Of a DNA stretch of 38,376 nt, positions 1-38,376 are shown piece after piece. The position numbers and the translations under genes are program-made. The stretch is from positions 1-38,376 of the IMG/VR virus record IMGVR_UViG_3300048924_000262. One strand, 5' to 3'. The stretch comes from a virus. Each line of letters opens with the position of its first letter. Position 1 is the stretch's first letter. The notes beneath the pieces are model-generated. The model had not been told where the DNA came from, made no database searches, and was given only the letters and a program-made list of their open reading frames with translations.

Positions 1-508
1 CTTCGGCAGGATGCTGCGCCACCAGGTGACCATCGTCGCTCAGGGTGAACAGGCAGATACGATCCTGCTTCAGCGCAGGCACCCACAGCGTGCGGTTATC
101 CGGCGTGATATTCGCCGAGTGGCAGCCCTCAAGCCCTTCCACCACATCCACGGTTTCGACCGGAATGCCATCTTCCAGACGCGTTACGCTGACGCAGCCC
201 GCGTTATAAGAGCCGCTGAAGACAAAGTTACCTTTACGATCGGTTGAGATATGGGTCGGGCTGCCCGGCAGTGGTGCTTCGGCAGTGTACGTCAGCGCGC
301 CATCGTCCGGAGAAATGCGATAGGCCAGCACGCGGAACTCCGGGCGCACACCCACGTACAAGAAACGTTTATCCGGGCTGATGACCATCGGTTGCACCTG
401 GCCTGGCACATCAACAACCTGAACCAGCGTGAGTGTCCCTTCGGTATTTAAACGCCAGACGTGGATCTGCTGGCTTTCAGGACTGGCGGTATAAACGGTT
501 TGTTTCAT
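1..508 (-). CDS. pgl: 6-phosphogluconolactonase, 5' part (runs off the window)
   Basis: The complement reads from ATG at 508 through about 169 codons to the window edge. The protein begins [18 protein letters not shown] and continues with the seven-bladed beta-propeller repeats of the YbhE/Pgl family (for example [17 protein letters not shown] and GPLPGSP-like turns). This enzyme hydrolyses 6-phosphogluconolactone to 6-phosphogluconate in the oxidative pentose phosphate pathway, in the cytosol. A GAGGAG ribosome binding site precedes the start. The gene is divergent from ybhA, as in Escherichia coli. The C-terminal part lies outside the window. It is host chromosome and much more GC-rich than the prophage. 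Confidence 0.95.
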
Positions 509-580: not shown

Positions 581-608
581 TTGAAGCGTTCGCCTCTCGG
601 TGTACCAT
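581..608 (+). promoter_or_regulatory. Candidate sigma70 promoter of host ybhA
   Basis: TTGAAG (581-586) and TACCAT (603-608) are separated by 16 bases, about 40 bases before the ybhA start. After integration it would still drive the truncated 5' fragment. The string CGGTGTAC-ATC here recurs upstream of the phage copy of the gene near 970-981. Confidence 0.45.
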
Positions 609-648: not shown

Positions 649-873
649 ATGACCTCGCGTGTGATTGCTCTGGATTTAGACGGTACCTTACTGACGCCGC
701 AAAAAACCCTTCTCCCCTCCTCCCTTGAGGCGCTTAAACGCGCGCAGGAAGTGGGATATCAACTCCTTATCGTAACGGGTCGACATCACGTTGCCATTCA
801 CCCTTTTTATCAGGCACTGGCGTTAGATACACCTGCAATTTGTTGTAATGGCACTTATTTGAATAACGGCTAA
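649..873 (+). pseudogene. ybhA: Host ybhA 5' fragment, cut by the prophage at codon 71
   Basis: The frame encodes the N-terminus of the HAD-superfamily pyridoxal-phosphate phosphatase YbhA: the DLDGTLLT nucleophile motif near residues 9-16, the VTGRH motif, and the AICCNGTYL segment. Host sequence ends at TTG 859-861 (codon 71). The next codons, Asn-Asn-Gly and the stop at 871-873, come from the phage. The remaining 3' portion of the gene is found beyond attR from 38252, in the same reading frame. The fragment lacks the cap domain and the later HAD motifs, so it cannot be active. Host GC content contrasts with the following phage DNA. Confidence 0.96.
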
Positions 874-888
874 TGTAAACAAACAAAT
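857..888. other. attL (core ATTTG plus phage P' arm)
   Basis: The core ATTTG (857-861) is shared with attR (38250-38254). Host ybhA lies to the left and phage DNA to the right. The phage arm ends with ACAAACAAAT (879-888), which is the exact reverse complement of ATTTGTTTGT (38226-38235) on the phage side of attR. Rejoining the two arms gives a dyad of about 56 bases around the core, as expected for a large serine integrase attP. Confidence 0.85.
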
Positions 889-950
889 TCATCACACACA
901 AAAGCGGCCCCCTATCGCTGTTCCAGTGCTCAAAAACTCACTTCACCTTG

Positions 951-980
951 TTTCGTCGTAGCCGCAAAGCGGTGTACTAT
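951..980 (+). promoter_or_regulatory. Possible promoter of the phage-borne ybhA
   Basis: A TACTAT hexamer (975-980) lies in a CGGTGTACTATC context that matches the corresponding CGGTGTACCATC in front of host ybhA. The best -35 at an 18-base spacer is TTTCGT (951-956), which is weak. The resemblance to the host leader suggests the phage captured the gene with its own promoter region. Assignment is tentative. Confidence 0.35.
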
Positions 981-1017
981 CGGAAAAACTACATACCAAA
1001 ACCAGGTGAATCAAGAC

Positions 1018-1860
1018 ATGAACTATCAGGTAATCGCCCTTGATCTGGACGGCACTTTATTGACGCCAGAAAAAACTATTTTACCAGCCTCACTATCTGC
1101 CTTACAGAATGCCCGTAAATCCGGGGCAAAGGTTGTCATCGTTACCGGACGGCACTTTGTAGCCATCCATCCTTTTTATCAGGCATTAGCTTTGAATACA
1201 CCAGCAATATGTTGCAATGGTGCTTTATTGTACGATTACACCGCAAAAAGAGTGATTGCTTCAGATCCATTACAACCAGAACAAGCTACACAATTAGTAA
1301 ACTTACTTGATAGTTACAATGTACATAGCCTGATGTATGCCGATAATGCCATGTTCTACCAAGAACCAACGGGGCATATTATCCGTACAGAAAATTGGGC
1401 TAAATCTCTTCCAGAGTCACAACGTCCAATCTTCAAACAAGTACCCTCTCTTAGTGAAGCATCGCAAAATGTTGATGCTATCTGGAAATTCGCCCTTACT
1501 GATTCTGATACTGAAAAACTACATAGCTTTGGTCAGATCGTAGAGCGTGAGCTTGGCCTTGCTTGTGAATGGTCTTGGCACGATCAAGTAGACATAGCAC
1601 AAGCCGGAAATAGTAAGGGTAAACGCCTGGCACAATGGGTAGAATCACAAGGTTTATCTATGAGCCAGGTAATAGCCTTTGGTGATAATTTCAACGATCT
1701 AAGCATGTTGAAAAATGCTGGCTTGGGTGTTGCTATGGGTAACGCGGTTGATGAAGTAAAAGCCTGTGCTGATTTAGTAATAGGTAACAATACTGAAACT
1801 GGTATAGCTGATGTAGTAAACCAGTACTTCCTGAGAGTACCCAAAGCAGAATTGATTTGA
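1018..1860 (+). CDS. ybhA: Phage-borne full-length YbhA-like HAD phosphatase
   Basis: This 280-residue protein matches host YbhA along its length. It shows DLDGTLLTPEKT (nucleophile Asp and second Asp), VTGRH, the conserved WHDQVDIA and GNSKGKRL segments of the Cof-type HAD family, and the acidic motif GDNFNDLSML near the C-terminus. YbhA-type enzymes dephosphorylate pyridoxal phosphate and other small phosphates in the cytosol. The ATG at 1018 is preferred over an in-frame GTG at 1006, because AGGTG (1004-1008) is a well-placed ribosome binding site and the resulting N-terminus aligns with the host protein. The gene is more AT-rich and diverged from the host copy, so it is not a recent duplication of this chromosome's gene. 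It sits just inside attL and probably replaces the function lost on integration. Confidence 0.93.
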   Translation: MNYQVIALDLDGTLLTPEKTILPASLSALQNARKSGAKVVIVTGRHFVAIHPFYQALALNTPAICCNGALLYDYTAKRVIASDPLQPEQATQLVNLLDSYNVHSLMYADNAMFYQEPTGHIIRTENWAKSLPESQRPIFKQVPSLSEASQNVDAIWKFALTDSDTEKLHSFGQIVERELGLACEWSWHDQVDIAQAGNSKGKRLAQWVESQGLSMSQVIAFGDNFNDLSMLKNAGLGVAMGNAVDEVKACADLVIGNNTETGIADVVNQYFLRVPKAELI

Positions 1861-4930: not shown

Positions 4931-5362
4931 TTAATTTAGTAATTCATATAATGATTGAAGGATTCCACGTATACGTACTGCATCCTTTCCACTTGGCAAA
5001 CGTGCCTTATGCATAACGGAAAGATTAATATTTCCCGTTTTCAATCCCTGATTAATGATAAGTGCTGTTTCTACAAATAGTGTTTCTTTCATTGATGGAA
5101 AAGCCCACAAAATGGTACGAGTATAATCTAATCCATCTTCTATCTTTTGATTAACTATCTTTGAACTTGAACTGTACTCACGCCATCCATTTTCAACTGA
5201 ATTAGCTTTTAGTTTCTTAACGTCCTTAACTCTCTTATACATCTGTTTACTACCTATATAAAAGGTACTGTCTTCAAACTGGAACAAGTACACGAATCCT
5301 ACATAACTACCGTTTGTTAATTCTTCCTCACTCCAATCATCATTGTAATTCCATTGCTTCAT
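4931..5362 (-). CDS. GIY-YIG-like endonuclease, free-standing
   Basis: The 143-residue protein opens with GFVYLFQFEDSTFYIGSKQ (residues 22-40), a good match to the two short strands of the GIY-YIG nuclease fold (here VYLF and YIG). It continues with WREYSSSSK and an E-containing helix (KETLFVETALI) in the places where this family keeps its catalytic and metal-binding residues. Related small phage nucleases often act as homing endonucleases or in phage competition. No intron or interrupted neighbour is visible, so it would be free-standing. AGGG precedes the ATG. The activity is inferred from motifs only. Confidence 0.7.
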   Translation of the reverse strand: MKQWNYNDDWSEEELTNGSYVGFVYLFQFEDSTFYIGSKQMYKRVKDVKKLKANSVENGWREYSSSSKIVNQKIEDGLDYTRTILWAFPSMKETLFVETALIINQGLKTGNINLSVMHKARLPSGKDAVRIRGILQSLYELLN

Positions 5363-28301: not shown

Positions 28302-28985
28302 CTATAGCAAACTATTAACTTTATGGAATGGAACTGACCTGTACAAATAACCTTGTACTGCTGATACTCCCGCATCCTGTAGTACTGGTAGCTCCTGCCG
28401 CTGCTCTACTCCCTCAACGATCACATACGGACAGTACTTCATGATGTTCTTCATCAGTACGTTGAATGTGGGTTTCTGTACTTCCTGACGGTAGAACGCT
28501 TTATCAAATTTTACCGCCTCATAGCATCCAGTAGTTAGTGCTTCGACATTGGCACGGCCTGAGCCAAGATCATCAAGGAACAAACGATAGCCAACGTTTA
28601 ACAGTGTTCTGAGTATCGGATGTTCAATACCCATTTCAAGCCCTTCAAAGTTCTCTGAGATCTCAAGCCTGATGAAATCCAGCTTATCCAATAGCTGAAT
28701 AATATCCCTGTCAAAGATACATAGCCGTGCCTGTACAGTATCAACGTTAACGGTACAGAAAAGCCGGTGTTCTCTGAACCATGACGCATGAACTTCTACT
28801 GTCTCTAATTGTTGTTTGAGTAGTTCCTTCTTCCCTTCGACCGTCATTGCCATGATGAAGTACTTACTATTCAGTACTGGCAGATCTTCACAGTGAAAGC
28901 GTGTTAGCAGTTCGCATCCTACAAGCTGACCTGCCGGAGTCATTATTGGTTCCGCAATGAAGGTTTTGGTGATCATTCCACTCAT
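28302..28985 (-). CDS. EAL-domain protein, c-di-GMP phosphodiesterase candidate
   Basis: The 227-residue protein is a stand-alone EAL domain. The EAL signature is CELLTR (Glu25). The metal- and substrate-binding residues of active phosphodiesterases are all in place: Asn80, Glu109 (LEISEN), Asp138-Asp139 (FLDDLGSG), Lys159, Glu191 (VEGVEQ) and Gln211. Size and lack of a GGDEF or sensor domain recall YdiV-type short EAL proteins, but unlike YdiV this one keeps the catalytic residues. It would lower c-di-GMP in the lysogen and so favour motility over biofilm; that is inferred. GTAC density here is as high as in the phage core, so the gene is probably a long-term phage resident. A start at codon 1 or codon 4 cannot be decided. 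Confidence 0.88.
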   Translation of the reverse strand: MSGMITKTFIAEPIMTPAGQLVGCELLTRFHCEDLPVLNSKYFIMAMTVEGKKELLKQQLETVEVHASWFREHRLFCTVNVDTVQARLCIFDRDIIQLLDKLDFIRLEISENFEGLEMGIEHPILRTLLNVGYRLFLDDLGSGRANVEALTTGCYEAVKFDKAFYRQEVQKPTFNVLMKNIMKYCPYVIVEGVEQRQELPVLQDAGVSAVQGYLYRSVPFHKVNSLL

Positions 28986-29569: not shown

Positions 29570-30133
29570 ATGGATTGGGGCAATGGTTCAGATCTGATTA
29601 GTGCTGGATGTAATGCTGTAATGGCAGGTGTAGCTGTGTATGCTGCTGCAAAAGCTAAAGATTGGCTTTCACCAAAAATCAATGAGCGAAAATTTAAATT
29701 TGCAGATGAGCTTATTGATCAGTTTTGTAAAATACAGCAGGAGGGATTTTACCTGCATAGTGATGTGAAACAAATAATCAATACAAATCCAGATGAACAA
29801 GGTGATGCTGAGATATTCCGAAAACGCTGGAACGCGATTTACCAGAGGGAAATTGAATATAGAAGGAACATTATCAATCTTCGTACCACAATGGAACGCA
29901 TGGATTTATGGGGATTAAAGCCTAAAAACGAAGTACACTTCACAGACCTTATTGATTCACATTTAGGCTTGGCATATAAAATAGAGGAATCGCTATCTAT
30001 TGGGGCAGATGAAACCAGATTACGGTTACAAAACAGCTTTGAGTATGACAGACAAATCAGTGAATATTACAAAGTTCTTCGCGGCACCCATAATAAGATA
30101 ATGAAACACTATAGTGAATTATTTGTTGATTGA
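29570..30133 (+). CDS. Membrane-anchored helical protein, local paralogue family
   Basis: The 187-residue protein begins with DWGNGSDLISAGCNAVMAG and VAVYAAAKAKDWLSPKINERK, a short hydrophobic segment (about residues 9-27) with a conserved W-SPKI exit, followed by about 155 residues of charged helical sequence. The opening is nearly the same as in the protein at 31068-31733. AAAGGG lies four bases upstream of the ATG. It is followed closely by the paralogue at 30143, so they form an operon. Function unknown; a membrane-tethered role in exclusion of other phages is a guess. Confidence 0.75.
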   Translation: MDWGNGSDLISAGCNAVMAGVAVYAAAKAKDWLSPKINERKFKFADELIDQFCKIQQEGFYLHSDVKQIINTNPDEQGDAEIFRKRWNAIYQREIEYRRNIINLRTTMERMDLWGLKPKNEVHFTDLIDSHLGLAYKIEESLSIGADETRLRLQNSFEYDRQISEYYKVLRGTHNKIMKHYSELFVD

Positions 30134-30142
30134 GGATATTCT

Positions 30143-30826
30143 ATGGCTTGGTATGATATTACTGGTACGGTAGCTGATTGGGTTATGGCAGGAGCAGCCG
30201 GATATGCAGCTTTTTTAGCAAAAAATTGGATTAAGCCAAATCTTCAACAACAAGGTTTGTCAAAGGTTGTCAATTTTTTACAACAAGACATTTCAAACTT
30301 AGCAACATTGCGAATAGAATACATTTATATAAAGTCTATAGTAAGAAATATTGAATGGCTTAAAGGTAATATCGATTTTATGCCTGGTGAAAAGCAAAAG
30401 CGACTAAGAGGTGTTTGTGATGATATTAAAAATGATATCATCCCAAAAAAAACAAATATCAAAATAAAAAACATTAATGAATTTAAAACTGCATTAAAAG
30501 AACTACAATGGTATGGTTACTCTTTTAAAAAAGAGAAGCTCCAATTAATTGAGGAATTATATAAATTAAAGAATGAGAACGACAATACAATAAATTCCAT
30601 TGTAATGTATGTGGATAAACTGGGCAGTACCGAAGTTATGGAAAGCTTCATGTTTTCTGAAAAGAAAAATTCAAATGAAGTTTTCAAAAAACTCGATGAA
30701 ATCATTTCTGGCCTCAACTCTTACGAAGAAAAACACGAGGAAGATTATAAGCAACTCAAAAATATTAAGGCTAAGATATTGAGTGAGAACCCCTTAGTTA
30801 CTGATTTCTTTGAGCTTAAGAGATAA
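30143..30826 (+). CDS. Membrane-anchored helical protein, local paralogue family
   Basis: The 227-residue protein starts WYDITGTVADWVMAGAAGYAA and continues FLAKNWIKPNLQQQG, the same hydrophobic segment and W-K-P exit as its neighbours. Next is a long, lysine-rich helical domain with coiled-coil character (residues 45-225). It begins nine bases after the previous stop, with GAGGA as ribosome binding site. It is the most divergent of the three adjacent paralogues after the N-terminus. Function unknown. Confidence 0.75.
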   Translation: MAWYDITGTVADWVMAGAAGYAAFLAKNWIKPNLQQQGLSKVVNFLQQDISNLATLRIEYIYIKSIVRNIEWLKGNIDFMPGEKQKRLRGVCDDIKNDIIPKKTNIKIKNINEFKTALKELQWYGYSFKKEKLQLIEELYKLKNENDNTINSIVMYVDKLGSTEVMESFMFSEKKNSNEVFKKLDEIISGLNSYEEKHEEDYKQLKNIKAKILSENPLVTDFFELKR

Positions 30827-30986: not shown

Positions 30987-31067
30987 GGCTCAGAGTGTAC
31001 TTGATCGTAGCTGTAATGGTAAAGTACAATATTTGATCAATAAATTTAATTGCGGATTTTATCAACA

Positions 31068-31733
31068 ATGGAATTAAAAAAAACAAATTTTACTTTATTA
31101 GGCATCATTGTGGTGCTGTTCATTGTTGCAGTTTTGGTACTTATCAAGGTTCTTTTCCTGGATGTTAAAGGATTCGAATGGGGGAGCGTAACTGATTGGG
31201 TAAGTGCTGCATGTAATATGGCGATGGCTGGTGCGGCTGTCTATGCTGCATACAATGCGAAAGATTGGATCTCTCCTAAAATACAACATGAAGGGTTCAA
31301 GCAAGCCAGTATGTGTATGGCTGAAATGGTACAGTTAAGGATACTTCAACAACATTTGGTATCCAGTTACAGATTACGGATCATTCAGGTTAGAAATCCT
31401 ACCCCGATGGAGCTTCAAGATGCCTTTAAACGGCATCATGAATTATGGCAAGAATTCAGTAAAAAAGTAATTGACTTTGGGACCAGATGTGAAAGTTTAC
31501 AAGTGTGGAAAATTTCTGTTTTACAAACAGATAAATTCCTTCTGTTAATTAAAACCTTAAATAGAGTTAACAGACTCCATTCTGACATGTTACGGCAATA
31601 TAATAATGAGAGTAATTTATATAATGTCCTTTTATCATGGAAAGAAAAAAAGGACGATGTCGAAAATTCCCATAAATTATTAGCTCAATCAATTAAAGAT
31701 TTAACTGTTGATTTCGATACACTCTTTAAATAG
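31068..31733 (+). CDS. Membrane-anchored helical protein, local paralogue family
   Basis: The 221-residue protein has one membrane segment at about residues 8-29 and a second short segment with EWGSVTDWVSAACNMAMAG and AAVYAAYNAKDWISPKI. It is nearly the same as the start of the protein at 29570. A helical domain of about 145 residues follows. The ATG at 31068 is preferred to a TTG at 31050, though neither has a strong ribosome binding site. It has its own promoter candidate at 30908-30935, apart from the two upstream paralogues. Function unknown. Confidence 0.75.
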   Translation: MELKKTNFTLLGIIVVLFIVAVLVLIKVLFLDVKGFEWGSVTDWVSAACNMAMAGAAVYAAYNAKDWISPKIQHEGFKQASMCMAEMVQLRILQQHLVSSYRLRIIQVRNPTPMELQDAFKRHHELWQEFSKKVIDFGTRCESLQVWKISVLQTDKFLLLIKTLNRVNRLHSDMLRQYNNESNLYNVLLSWKEKKDDVENSHKLLAQSIKDLTVDFDTLFK

Positions 31734-36305: not shown

Positions 36306-38198
36306 TTAGTTAGACGTCAGAAAATTGAACTGGTTACGCATCCAGACACCTACGGCATTATTAGGATCAACAGCATCTACATAGTTCAGCAATAGCGAGT
36401 AATCAATGATGCTCAATGGTTCCTCTTCTATGTTGATTAGCCGTGGTGATGTAACCCCCTCAACAACGATACTAAAGGATGGCGTAGAATACGCTACAGT
36501 ATCGCCAAAACGCTCTATAGCAACGCCAGAAACCAGTACAGGTTCTTTCTTAGACTCAACGAATAGGACGTGCTTGAGTACTTCCACTTTCTTATAATTG
36601 ATTGTAATCACATAGTGCTTACCAGTTCGGTAAAGCTGAATACTATCCACTATCTTAGATAGCTCTGCTGCCATCCTTGCACGTACTTCAATGTTCTTAA
36701 CATCGAATAGTACGGAAGGATCAACTGTTTTAAGGTAATCAGTATCTACTTGTACTTCTGTGAACGTAGTTTGTCGTTCTTTGAGTTCCTTTAACCTATC
36801 TTCTGATTCTTCAAGTTCGACCAGTACGGCAAAGGGTATCTTTTTACCCGTATTGCGAATCCGTTCAATGTTTAGTTTATAGTCCTCAATGTGTGCTTCT
36901 TCTTCTTCAATTTTTAAGCGTACTAATTCAAGCTCTGGATTTATTTCATTCGGTTTTAGAATTTGAGTAAAGTCCAGATTCTTGATATGTTCTATAACGA
37001 ATTGTTCAACTACTTCATACTTTAGAGCCTTGTTATCACACAGTCCGTCGCGTTCAGCAATACATCGGATGTATCTATATTCCTCATTGAACTTACCTTT
37101 TTTCTTTGAATCGCGTTTAGCCACTACTACATTATGATACATTGCCTCACCACAACGAGCACAACGGCAAATACCATTAAAGATATTACTCTGTATGATT
37201 TCCTTTCCTGTATCTACTTCCAATTCAATTACATTACCATCACGATCTAAGTATGGTTTATTAGTATTTGGATCATAGAATTTCTTGAGTACTTTACCAC
37301 CAGTTACTTTAGCACCTGGACGACGTGATTTTAGTAACTCCTGTACTAAATCAAATTCCTCTTTTGAAATAGCAATTGGATATACATCCATTTCATAACG
37401 TTTCTGATCTACTGGATTGGAGGTACTGCTATAATCCCTAATGATTTCACTAATAAAAATTGAACCAGTTACCCTCTTATTGCGTAGTAGTTTATGAATA
37501 GATTCACCACGCCACAAGCGACCAGAAACAAACAACCATTCACTACCTCTTTCATTAAGCATTTTAGCTATAGTAGGTGTGCCAATACCCGTTTGATACA
37601 AACGAAAAATTTCACGCACGATAGCTACTTTATCATTCAGTTCATATCTATCTTCTACTATATCTATCCACTGCGGACGCTTGTTAGTGACGATAGTACC
37701 TTGCTTGAATGCTTGTTCACGCTTCCGCCGCCAACCATCACGTATACGGTCACTCTTGATTTTCGACTCTTCATACGCACGCTGAGCAGACATAGCGACT
37801 ATTGGCAACATAGCACTATTGCCACGGTTAATAAGCATATTCAATGAAACATCATGAATAGTAATATTGTGTCTATCCAGTTCTGCCAAGTACCCGACAA
37901 CCTGGAATGGATTTTGACGGCTAAACCTATCGATACTTTCCAGTACTAAATGTGAATCATCCCACATACCAGCACGTACTTGATCCATCCATCGGCCTAA
38001 CTCCCCTTCAGACATGTTCAGTCCTTTGAAAGCTGATACACCTTGATCGCTAATAATGGTAGCTTCTGGATCATCCATTTCTGCCAGCAAGTTAATACGC
38101 TCTACATATGCGTTCAGATTTTGTTCTTGCCTCTCAATACCCGTTCCAGATAGTTGCAGCTCTGAACTAACGCGATGATATATAAAACATTTTTTCAT
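36306..38198 (-). CDS. Large serine integrase
   Basis: The 630-residue protein is a typical large serine recombinase. The N-terminal resolvase domain has Tyr7-x-Arg9-x-Ser11 (YHRVSSELQ, Ser11 catalytic), DQGVSAFKG, and ESIDRFSRQ with the two catalytic Arg residues (91 and 94). The recombinase domain (residues 155-290) precedes a zinc ribbon with CRCARC (345-350) and two more Cys at 380 and 388, interrupted by a coiled-coil motif around residues 405-475. It catalyses attP x attB integration, and would need a directionality factor for excision; none was recognised. The gene reads away from attR, with its start 52 bases from the core. The TCCT (38209-38212) that supplies AGGA lies in a small dyad. 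Confidence 0.96.
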   Translation of the reverse strand: MKKCFIYHRVSSELQLSGTGIERQEQNLNAYVERINLLAEMDDPEATIISDQGVSAFKGLNMSEGELGRWMDQVRAGMWDDSHLVLESIDRFSRQNPFQVVGYLAELDRHNITIHDVSLNMLINRGNSAMLPIVAMSAQRAYEESKIKSDRIRDGWRRKREQAFKQGTIVTNKRPQWIDIVEDRYELNDKVAIVREIFRLYQTGIGTPTIAKMLNERGSEWLFVSGRLWRGESIHKLLRNKRVTGSIFISEIIRDYSSTSNPVDQKRYEMDVYPIAISKEEFDLVQELLKSRRPGAKVTGGKVLKKFYDPNTNKPYLDRDGNVIELEVDTGKEIIQSNIFNGICRCARCGEAMYHNVVVAKRDSKKKGKFNEEYRYIRCIAERDGLCDNKALKYEVVEQFVIEHIKNLDFTQILKPNEINPELELVRLKIEEEEAHIEDYKLNIERIRNTGKKIPFAVLVELEESEDRLKELKERQTTFTEVQVDTDYLKTVDPSVLFDVKNIEVRARMAAELSKIVDSIQLYRTGKHYVITINYKKVEVLKHVLFVESKKEPVLVSGVAIERFGDTVAYSTPSFSIVVEGVTSPRLINIEEEPLSIIDYSLLLNYVDAVDPNNAVGVWMRNQFNFLTSN

Positions 38199-38225: not shown

Positions 38226-38254
38226 ATTTGTTTGTAGAGATTATCATACATTTG
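38226..38254. other. attR (phage P arm plus core ATTTG)
   Basis: The arm ATTTGTTTGT (38226-38235) mirrors ACAAACAAAT beside attL (879-888). The core ATTTG (38250-38254) matches attL 857-861, and host ybhA continues in frame from TTG 38252. Around the junction ATCATAC (phage) faces GTATGAT (host), which shows that both half-sites have the same dyad design. Confidence 0.85.
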
Positions 38255-38376
38255 TATGATTATCAGGCAAAAAAGGTTTTAGCCTCCGACCCGCTGCCGG
38301 TTCCCCAGGCGCTGCAGCTGATTGATCTGCTGGATGAGCATGCCGTTCACGGCCTGATGTACGTGGATAACGCGAT
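38252..38376 (+). pseudogene. ybhA: Host ybhA 3' fragment (runs off the window)
   Basis: Codons from TTG 38252 read YDYQAKKVLASDPLP and continue with the YbhA cap-domain region (ALQLIDLLDEH, HGLMYVDNA) to the window edge. Fused to the fragment ending at 861, the two halves restore an uninterrupted host gene. No start codon or promoter is present for this half, so it is inactive unless the prophage excises. Confidence 0.95.

Follow-up and report, generated by a model that had tools for sequence, protein, structure and literature searches.

A prophage inside codon 71 of ybhA carries a second, complete ybhA gene with a recoded attachment-site stretch

Introduction

The nearest precedent for the locus described here is SE-6283 (Tn6283), an integrative element found in the bcp gene of Vibrio and Escherichia coli that carries a bcp homolog (PMC9345347). 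SXT/R391 integrative and conjugative elements (ICEs), which target prfC, and IMEVchUSA3, which targets dusA, provide no more than a promoter and an N-terminus (PMC8409611). Pasteurellaceae ICEs inserted in tRNA-Leu have an intact copy of the target at the element end, which replaces the disrupted gene (PMC6028734). A survey of large serine integrases describes attB sites in conserved coding sequence and disrupted target genes, with no whole replacement mentioned in the accessible part of its text (PMC10083194). In E. coli, YbhA is the pyridoxal phosphate (PLP) phosphatase of vitamin B6 salvage (Sugimoto et al., 2018, cited in PMC10202323).

Insertion within a gene is generally regarded as a cost. 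Here, a family of elements inserted in ybhA was analysed, starting from a viral DNA stretch of 38,376 nucleotides (IMG/VR record IMGVR_UViG_3300048924_000262; hereafter the window). These elements repay the insertion by bringing an entire gene from which the attachment site appears to have been lost. The literature searched, which covered few subscription papers, contained no account of such elements in ybhA.

Architecture of the element and its attachment sites

The window contains a siphophage-like prophage of about 37.4 kb (862–38254), with genes for terminase, portal, capsid, tape measure and central tail fibre, located inside codon 71 (TTG) of a host ybhA gene. A previous sequence-only reading had described a host gene cut after codon 71, its 3′ part beyond attR in the same frame and a complete, diverged ybhA as the first phage gene inside attL. 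All of this was found again. The 5′ fragment (649–861, plus strand) is 90% identical to residues 1–71 of E. coli YbhA; in the ORF list it belongs to ORF 649–873, where codons 1–71 are followed by three codons of phage DNA and a stop (871–873). The 3′ fragment (38255–38376, plus strand) resumes in frame from codon 72, matches residues 69–111 of E. coli YbhA by tblastn and is stop-free up to the window end. The complete gene inside attL (1018–1860, plus strand), referred to below as the replacement, encodes a HAD-IIB/Cof phosphatase of 280 amino acids (PF08282, NF007821 and family motifs). Assembly duplication was ruled out, as this second copy is only 64–66% identical to the host fragments and recurs elsewhere. 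Chance was also ruled out, the same layout being present in nine or more further elements whose flanks could be read.

The crossover point was located by comparing the empty E. coli gene (...GGC ACC TAT TTG TAT GAT TAT...) with attL, where ...TATTTG is followed by AATAACGG, and attR, where ...ACATTTG is followed by TATGATTAT. This places the crossover inside the common TTG, which is the Leu71 codon (859–861 in attL and 38252–38254 in attR, both plus strand). The same TTG is common to attL and attR of nine elements compared with native genes. The window alone would give a 5-bp core, ATTTG, but attR of ESBLEC_MG48, FDN-24 and G082 reads ACACTTG, which reduces the core to TTG. The attP site was reconstructed from attL and attR. 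Its right arm (862–887, plus strand), also present in FDN-24 and Mangrovibacter, ends with AACAAACAAA and matches the inverted TTTGTTTGTA motif of the left arm (38227–38236, plus strand) at an equal distance from the core, as predicted for a serine integrase. The gene adjoining attR (36306–38198, minus strand) encodes such an enzyme, a large serine integrase of 630 amino acids with Resolvase (PF00239), Recombinase (PF07508) and zinc beta ribbon (PF13408) domains. With these three domains, a short common core, inverted-repeat arms and an attB that differs from attP outside the core, the element has the features of a large serine integrase element. It shares its recombinase class, and an attB in conserved coding sequence, with the surveyed elements of PMC10083194.

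Like SXT/R391 and IMEVchUSA3 (PMC8409611), the ybhA element brings a new promoter and would remove the integration cost, but it leaves the host gene broken and supplies a whole second gene. There is no in-frame fusion of the SXT/dusA type: the native 5′ fragment stops three codons past the core, and the 3′ fragment, which is read away from the adjoining integrase gene, gains no full N-terminus. The Pasteurellaceae ICEs restore a short tRNA gene, whereas the gene supplied by the ybhA element is a distinct, diverged one that encodes a protein and has a promoter of its own. Like SE-6283, the window element has a complete homolog of the disrupted gene. As far as the source describes it, SE-6283 differs in being a non-phage element with the recombinases intA and intB, whereas the att-adjacent integrase of the window is a single large serine recombinase. 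IntA and IntB are recombinases of the tyrosine type. The window element works like the SE-6283 type and, having no IntA/IntB pair, is not a member of it. Within the limits of that partial description, the ybhA elements are set apart by their recombinase class, their mainly phage nature and a recoded attB stretch, the recoding being known from the ybhA side only. The contrast previously drawn with phages that restore their target by att identity was right in kind; whole-gene substitution nevertheless has a precedent in SE-6283 and bcp (PMC9345347).

Recurrence across genomes

Relatives of the integrase were found in Mangrovibacter plantisponsor (87% identity), Citrobacter sp. 18056 (56%), IMG/VR contigs, one further genome (G082) of a 392-genome family sample and four E. 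coli genomes. Each genome-borne element found via the integrase has a replacement ybhA inside attL. The layout of the window is repeated in Mangrovibacter, Citrobacter, G082, E. coli ESBLEC_MG48, FDN-24, FDN-9 and SW071618, UViG 2700989490 and others. The search for the same attB and gene in related prophages, proposed earlier, gave a replacement in every intact element with readable flanks. Among the elements found, no intact one lacked it, and only an insertion sequence (IS)-gutted remnant, CAVP773, is without a copy. The IMG/VR integrase contigs that lack the gene (G003, G004, G006 and G007) are uninformative, because these records end at the integrase or are fragments. The 'phages' collection contained homologs below 40% identity and no close relative.

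Of 5,426 E. coli genomes, ybhA DNA was detected in 5,361 and the attB stretch was unbroken in 5,355. Five of the six genomes with a broken stretch (G3/10, ESBLEC_MG48, FDN-24, FDN-9 and SW071618) contain a replacement; the sixth, CAVP773, holds what is left of an SW071618-like element. A replacement is present in four genomes of the 392-genome family sample (G001, G082, G103 and G246).

The SW071618 element (L034, 3688–18020) is a non-phage island, about 14 kb long, that has the same attB, the same kind of integrase and the replacement gene. Its cargo includes a KAP NTPase and a CD-NTase/2TM (SLATT-like) effector pair with matches to CBASS-type models. A module common to phages and a non-phage island, and the recoding of attB described below, go beyond the sequence-only reading.

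Several IMG/VR records (L006, L007, L009, L066, L070 and L072) have an end that coincides exactly with the integrase or with the start codon of the replacement. Given these ends, boundary callers may take the replacement for host DNA.

Enzyme family, constraint and promoter of the replacement

The replacements are 61–64% identical to E. coli YbhA and belong to the same enzyme family, with the same motifs. They differ from it as an element-resident, AT-rich clade with a longer C-terminus (up to 280 versus 272 amino acids) and an altered attB stretch. With NF007821, the NCBI equivalog model for pyridoxal phosphatase (cut-off 274), the window copy (1018–1857) scored 468.9 bits and the G103 copy 457.2 bits. 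The catalytic motifs DLDGT, TGR, SKGK and GDNxND (GDNFND in the window copy) are intact in all 16 full-length replacements. Pairwise dN/dS was 0.04–0.22, well below 1, values with saturated dS being rough. Recent dN/dS was 0.16–0.22 among replacements versus 0.03–0.08 among natives, and constraint on the replacements is therefore somewhat weaker.

Upstream of the host gene, a promoter −10 motif (TGTACCAT; 601–608, plus strand) was recognized from the motif GGTGTAYcATcgg, which the native ybhA genes of 13 loci have at a similar spacing from the ATG. Upstream alignments placed the −10 hexamer of the replacement, TACTAT, at 975–980 (plus strand) inside GGTGTACTATCGG, in common with the native promoter and at about an equal distance from the ATG. 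TGTACTAT is invariant in all 13 replacement genes compared, even where the remaining leader varies. As the native motif has been kept, the replacement most likely arrived with its native promoter, and it is most likely expressed in the lysogen from this native-type motif. The promoter claim is based on conservation with native genes: in a sigma-70 pattern scan of 480–2000, promoter-like sites were no commoner than in shuffled sequences and none was found at 975.

Origin and exchange of the replacement

The 16 full-length replacements form one clade (support 97/94) near a native ybhA group of other Enterobacteriaceae. The donor search suggested earlier thus led to a group of nearest natives, and no donor genus could be named. 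Overall GC of the replacement is 0.42 and third-position GC is 0.28–0.39, versus 0.44–0.84 in sampled natives, so the gene has probably long been resident in the elements.

A complete phosphatase of such phage-like composition could also be a moron, that is, a phage metabolic gene that acts during infection or lysogeny to lower or tune PLP, its place near attP being incidental. We regard this as unlikely: every copy with readable flanks is located at attL of a ybhA-splitting element, the native ybhA promoter motif is kept, the non-phage island has the gene in the same place, and in G103 and G246 the replacement outlives the phage genes.

Integrase and replacement identities were weakly correlated (r = 0.22). 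The window and ESBLEC_MG48 share 57% identity in the integrase and 94% in the replacement; for the window and Mangrovibacter, the values are 87% and 82%. These decoupled identities rule out strict co-inheritance and indicate that the replacement has been exchanged among elements that differ in integrase and in attP arms. Such exchange, between elements whose integrases are only 52–58% identical, also bears on the idea that the gene is a by-product without a role, captured by an old imprecise excision from the ybhA locus of another host. Its position beside attP, the remnants of a native promoter and the nesting of the clade among native ybhA genes are what such a capture would leave, and capture may well be the origin of the replacement, though not the reason for its retention. 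Purifying selection over a long divergence, with motifs intact in 16 of 16 copies, and survival of the gene in decaying elements likewise speak against a gene without a role, which we hold to be quite improbable.

Decayed elements

E. coli G3/10 has a truncated integrase next to an IS1 and has lost most late genes. In G246, most of the phage is gone, about 92 integrase residues are left and an IS lies inside. G103 has lost both the integrase and the native 3′ half, and the replacement is the sole complete ybhA in the genome; a mobile element can thus permanently take over a core host gene. The replacement is intact in all three, which is the strongest comparative sign that the gene may be useful.

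The E. coli blood isolate CAVP773 (L098, 12384–14192) has lost both the integrase and the replacement. An ISSen4 copy has replaced the stretch from just behind the replacement −10 motif to the integrase start region, and no intact ybhA is left in this strain. Loss of ybhA is therefore non-lethal and tolerated in at least one strain.

These remnants also weigh on a reading by active lysogeny, in which the lysogen keeps ybhA switched off until excision restores it, with the second copy used under another condition. Regulated excision of a serine-integrase element is known from the coding gene comK. The gerE element is another serine-integrase element in a coding gene that behaves so (PMC5595907). 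The ybhA elements need no excision, since their copy is complete and has a native-like promoter, and several decayed elements that are unable to excise still keep the copy; active lysogeny is thus very improbable here.

The sequence-only reading had proposed that lysogens keep PLP phosphatase activity. This is well supported by comparison, through recurrence, the equivalog match, the intact motifs, the promoter motif, purifying selection and survival in decayed elements, all of which point to an enzyme that would be active in the lysogen. Its further suggestion, that the phage copy alters host metabolism, found no sign in its favour.

Divergence at the attachment-site stretch

Native ybhA has its most conserved DNA around codon 71, with a pairwise identity of 0.92 at codons 61–73. 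Between replacements and natives, identity around this codon falls to 0.66–0.74. Codon listing and divergence scans delimited the recoded attB-equivalent of the window replacement to codons 64–80 (1207–1257, plus strand). It reads ...GGT GCT TTA TTG TAC GAT TAC..., versus ...GGC ACY TAT TTG TAT GAT TAT... in the native gene. In consensus, native TAT TTG TAT GAT TAT has become mostly TTR NTN TAC GAT TAC, and the protein has shifted from NGTYLYDY to NGALLYDY. The changes include Tyr70 to Leu and silent TAT to TAC replacements at Tyr72 (16/16) and Tyr74 (15/16), which run counter to the AT-rich drift of the gene. Conservation of TAC at Tyr72 and Tyr74 was rejected as a separate proof of selection because other Tyr codons are equally conserved.

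Excess divergence in the 13-codon window 65–77 was 0.232, versus 0.052 elsewhere (sd 0.029; z 6.1). The top-ranking divergence windows fell at the attB stretch in separate replacement lineages. With the nearest native clade as sole reference, z was 3.0 and the top window was still at codons 68–80. In native control clades, no attB peak was seen in seven of eight; the distant clade L074/L075 does diverge there (0.196, z 2.4). At a distance of up to 15 bp from the core, the replacement consensus differs at 9 of 28 sites that are conserved in natives; for such sites elsewhere, the figure is 23 of 366 (P = 1e-4). As the replacements have a single ancestor, the recoding counts as one evolutionary event followed by retention, not as 16 events.

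The simplest reading of this divergence is escape from the element's own integrase, which would no longer recognize the stretch. About 0.37 kb separates attP from the recoded site, which has the same orientation; recombination between the two would therefore delete the approximately 370 bp in between.

Proposed mechanism

The evidence can be brought together in an integration module, int-attP-ybhA′, in which both genes flank attP and point away from it. The serine integrase would insert the element where host ybhA is strongly conserved, with the core TTG at Leu71, splitting the gene, and integration would put the complete ybhA′ just inside attL. With its native-type promoter motif, ybhA′ would most likely be expressed as the PLP phosphatase of the lysogen, removing the insertion cost. 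Its attB-equivalent would most likely have been altered against integrase recognition, so that attP would not recombine with its own neighbouring gene. We consider it probable that this explanation, an integration module with a compensating, integrase-resistant ybhA′, is right as a whole, including the expression, activity, benefit and resistance that it presumes.

A bolder reading, to which we give an even chance, is a natural case of recoded rescue. Temperate phages and a defence island would share a portable int-attP-ybhA′ module that destroys a host gene and supplies a copy selected for integrase resistance, so that the lysogen would depend on the element and no attB would be left for a like rival. 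If so, engineered genetic systems with a recoded rescue gene would have a counterpart in nature. The module has spread across several genera and between phages and the island, and could provide a simple laboratory system for how attB escape evolves.

Other features of the window

Paralogous small membrane proteins with a motif like DWVSAACNMAMAGAAVYAAYNAKDW are encoded at 1880–2620, 29570–30133, 30143–30826 and 31050–31733; they had no Pfam or PADLOC match. A similar protein adjoins the replacement in G246 (L084, 6358–7128). A Tlde1-domain protein (PF10908; 32459–33025) adjoins a small membrane protein. The late genes include a SegE-type GIY-YIG nuclease (4931–5362), and a phage EAL-domain protein, possibly a c-di-GMP phosphodiesterase, is encoded at 28302–28985. 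The tetranucleotide GTAC is present at about 1.4 times the Markov expectation throughout the phage (1861–38198).
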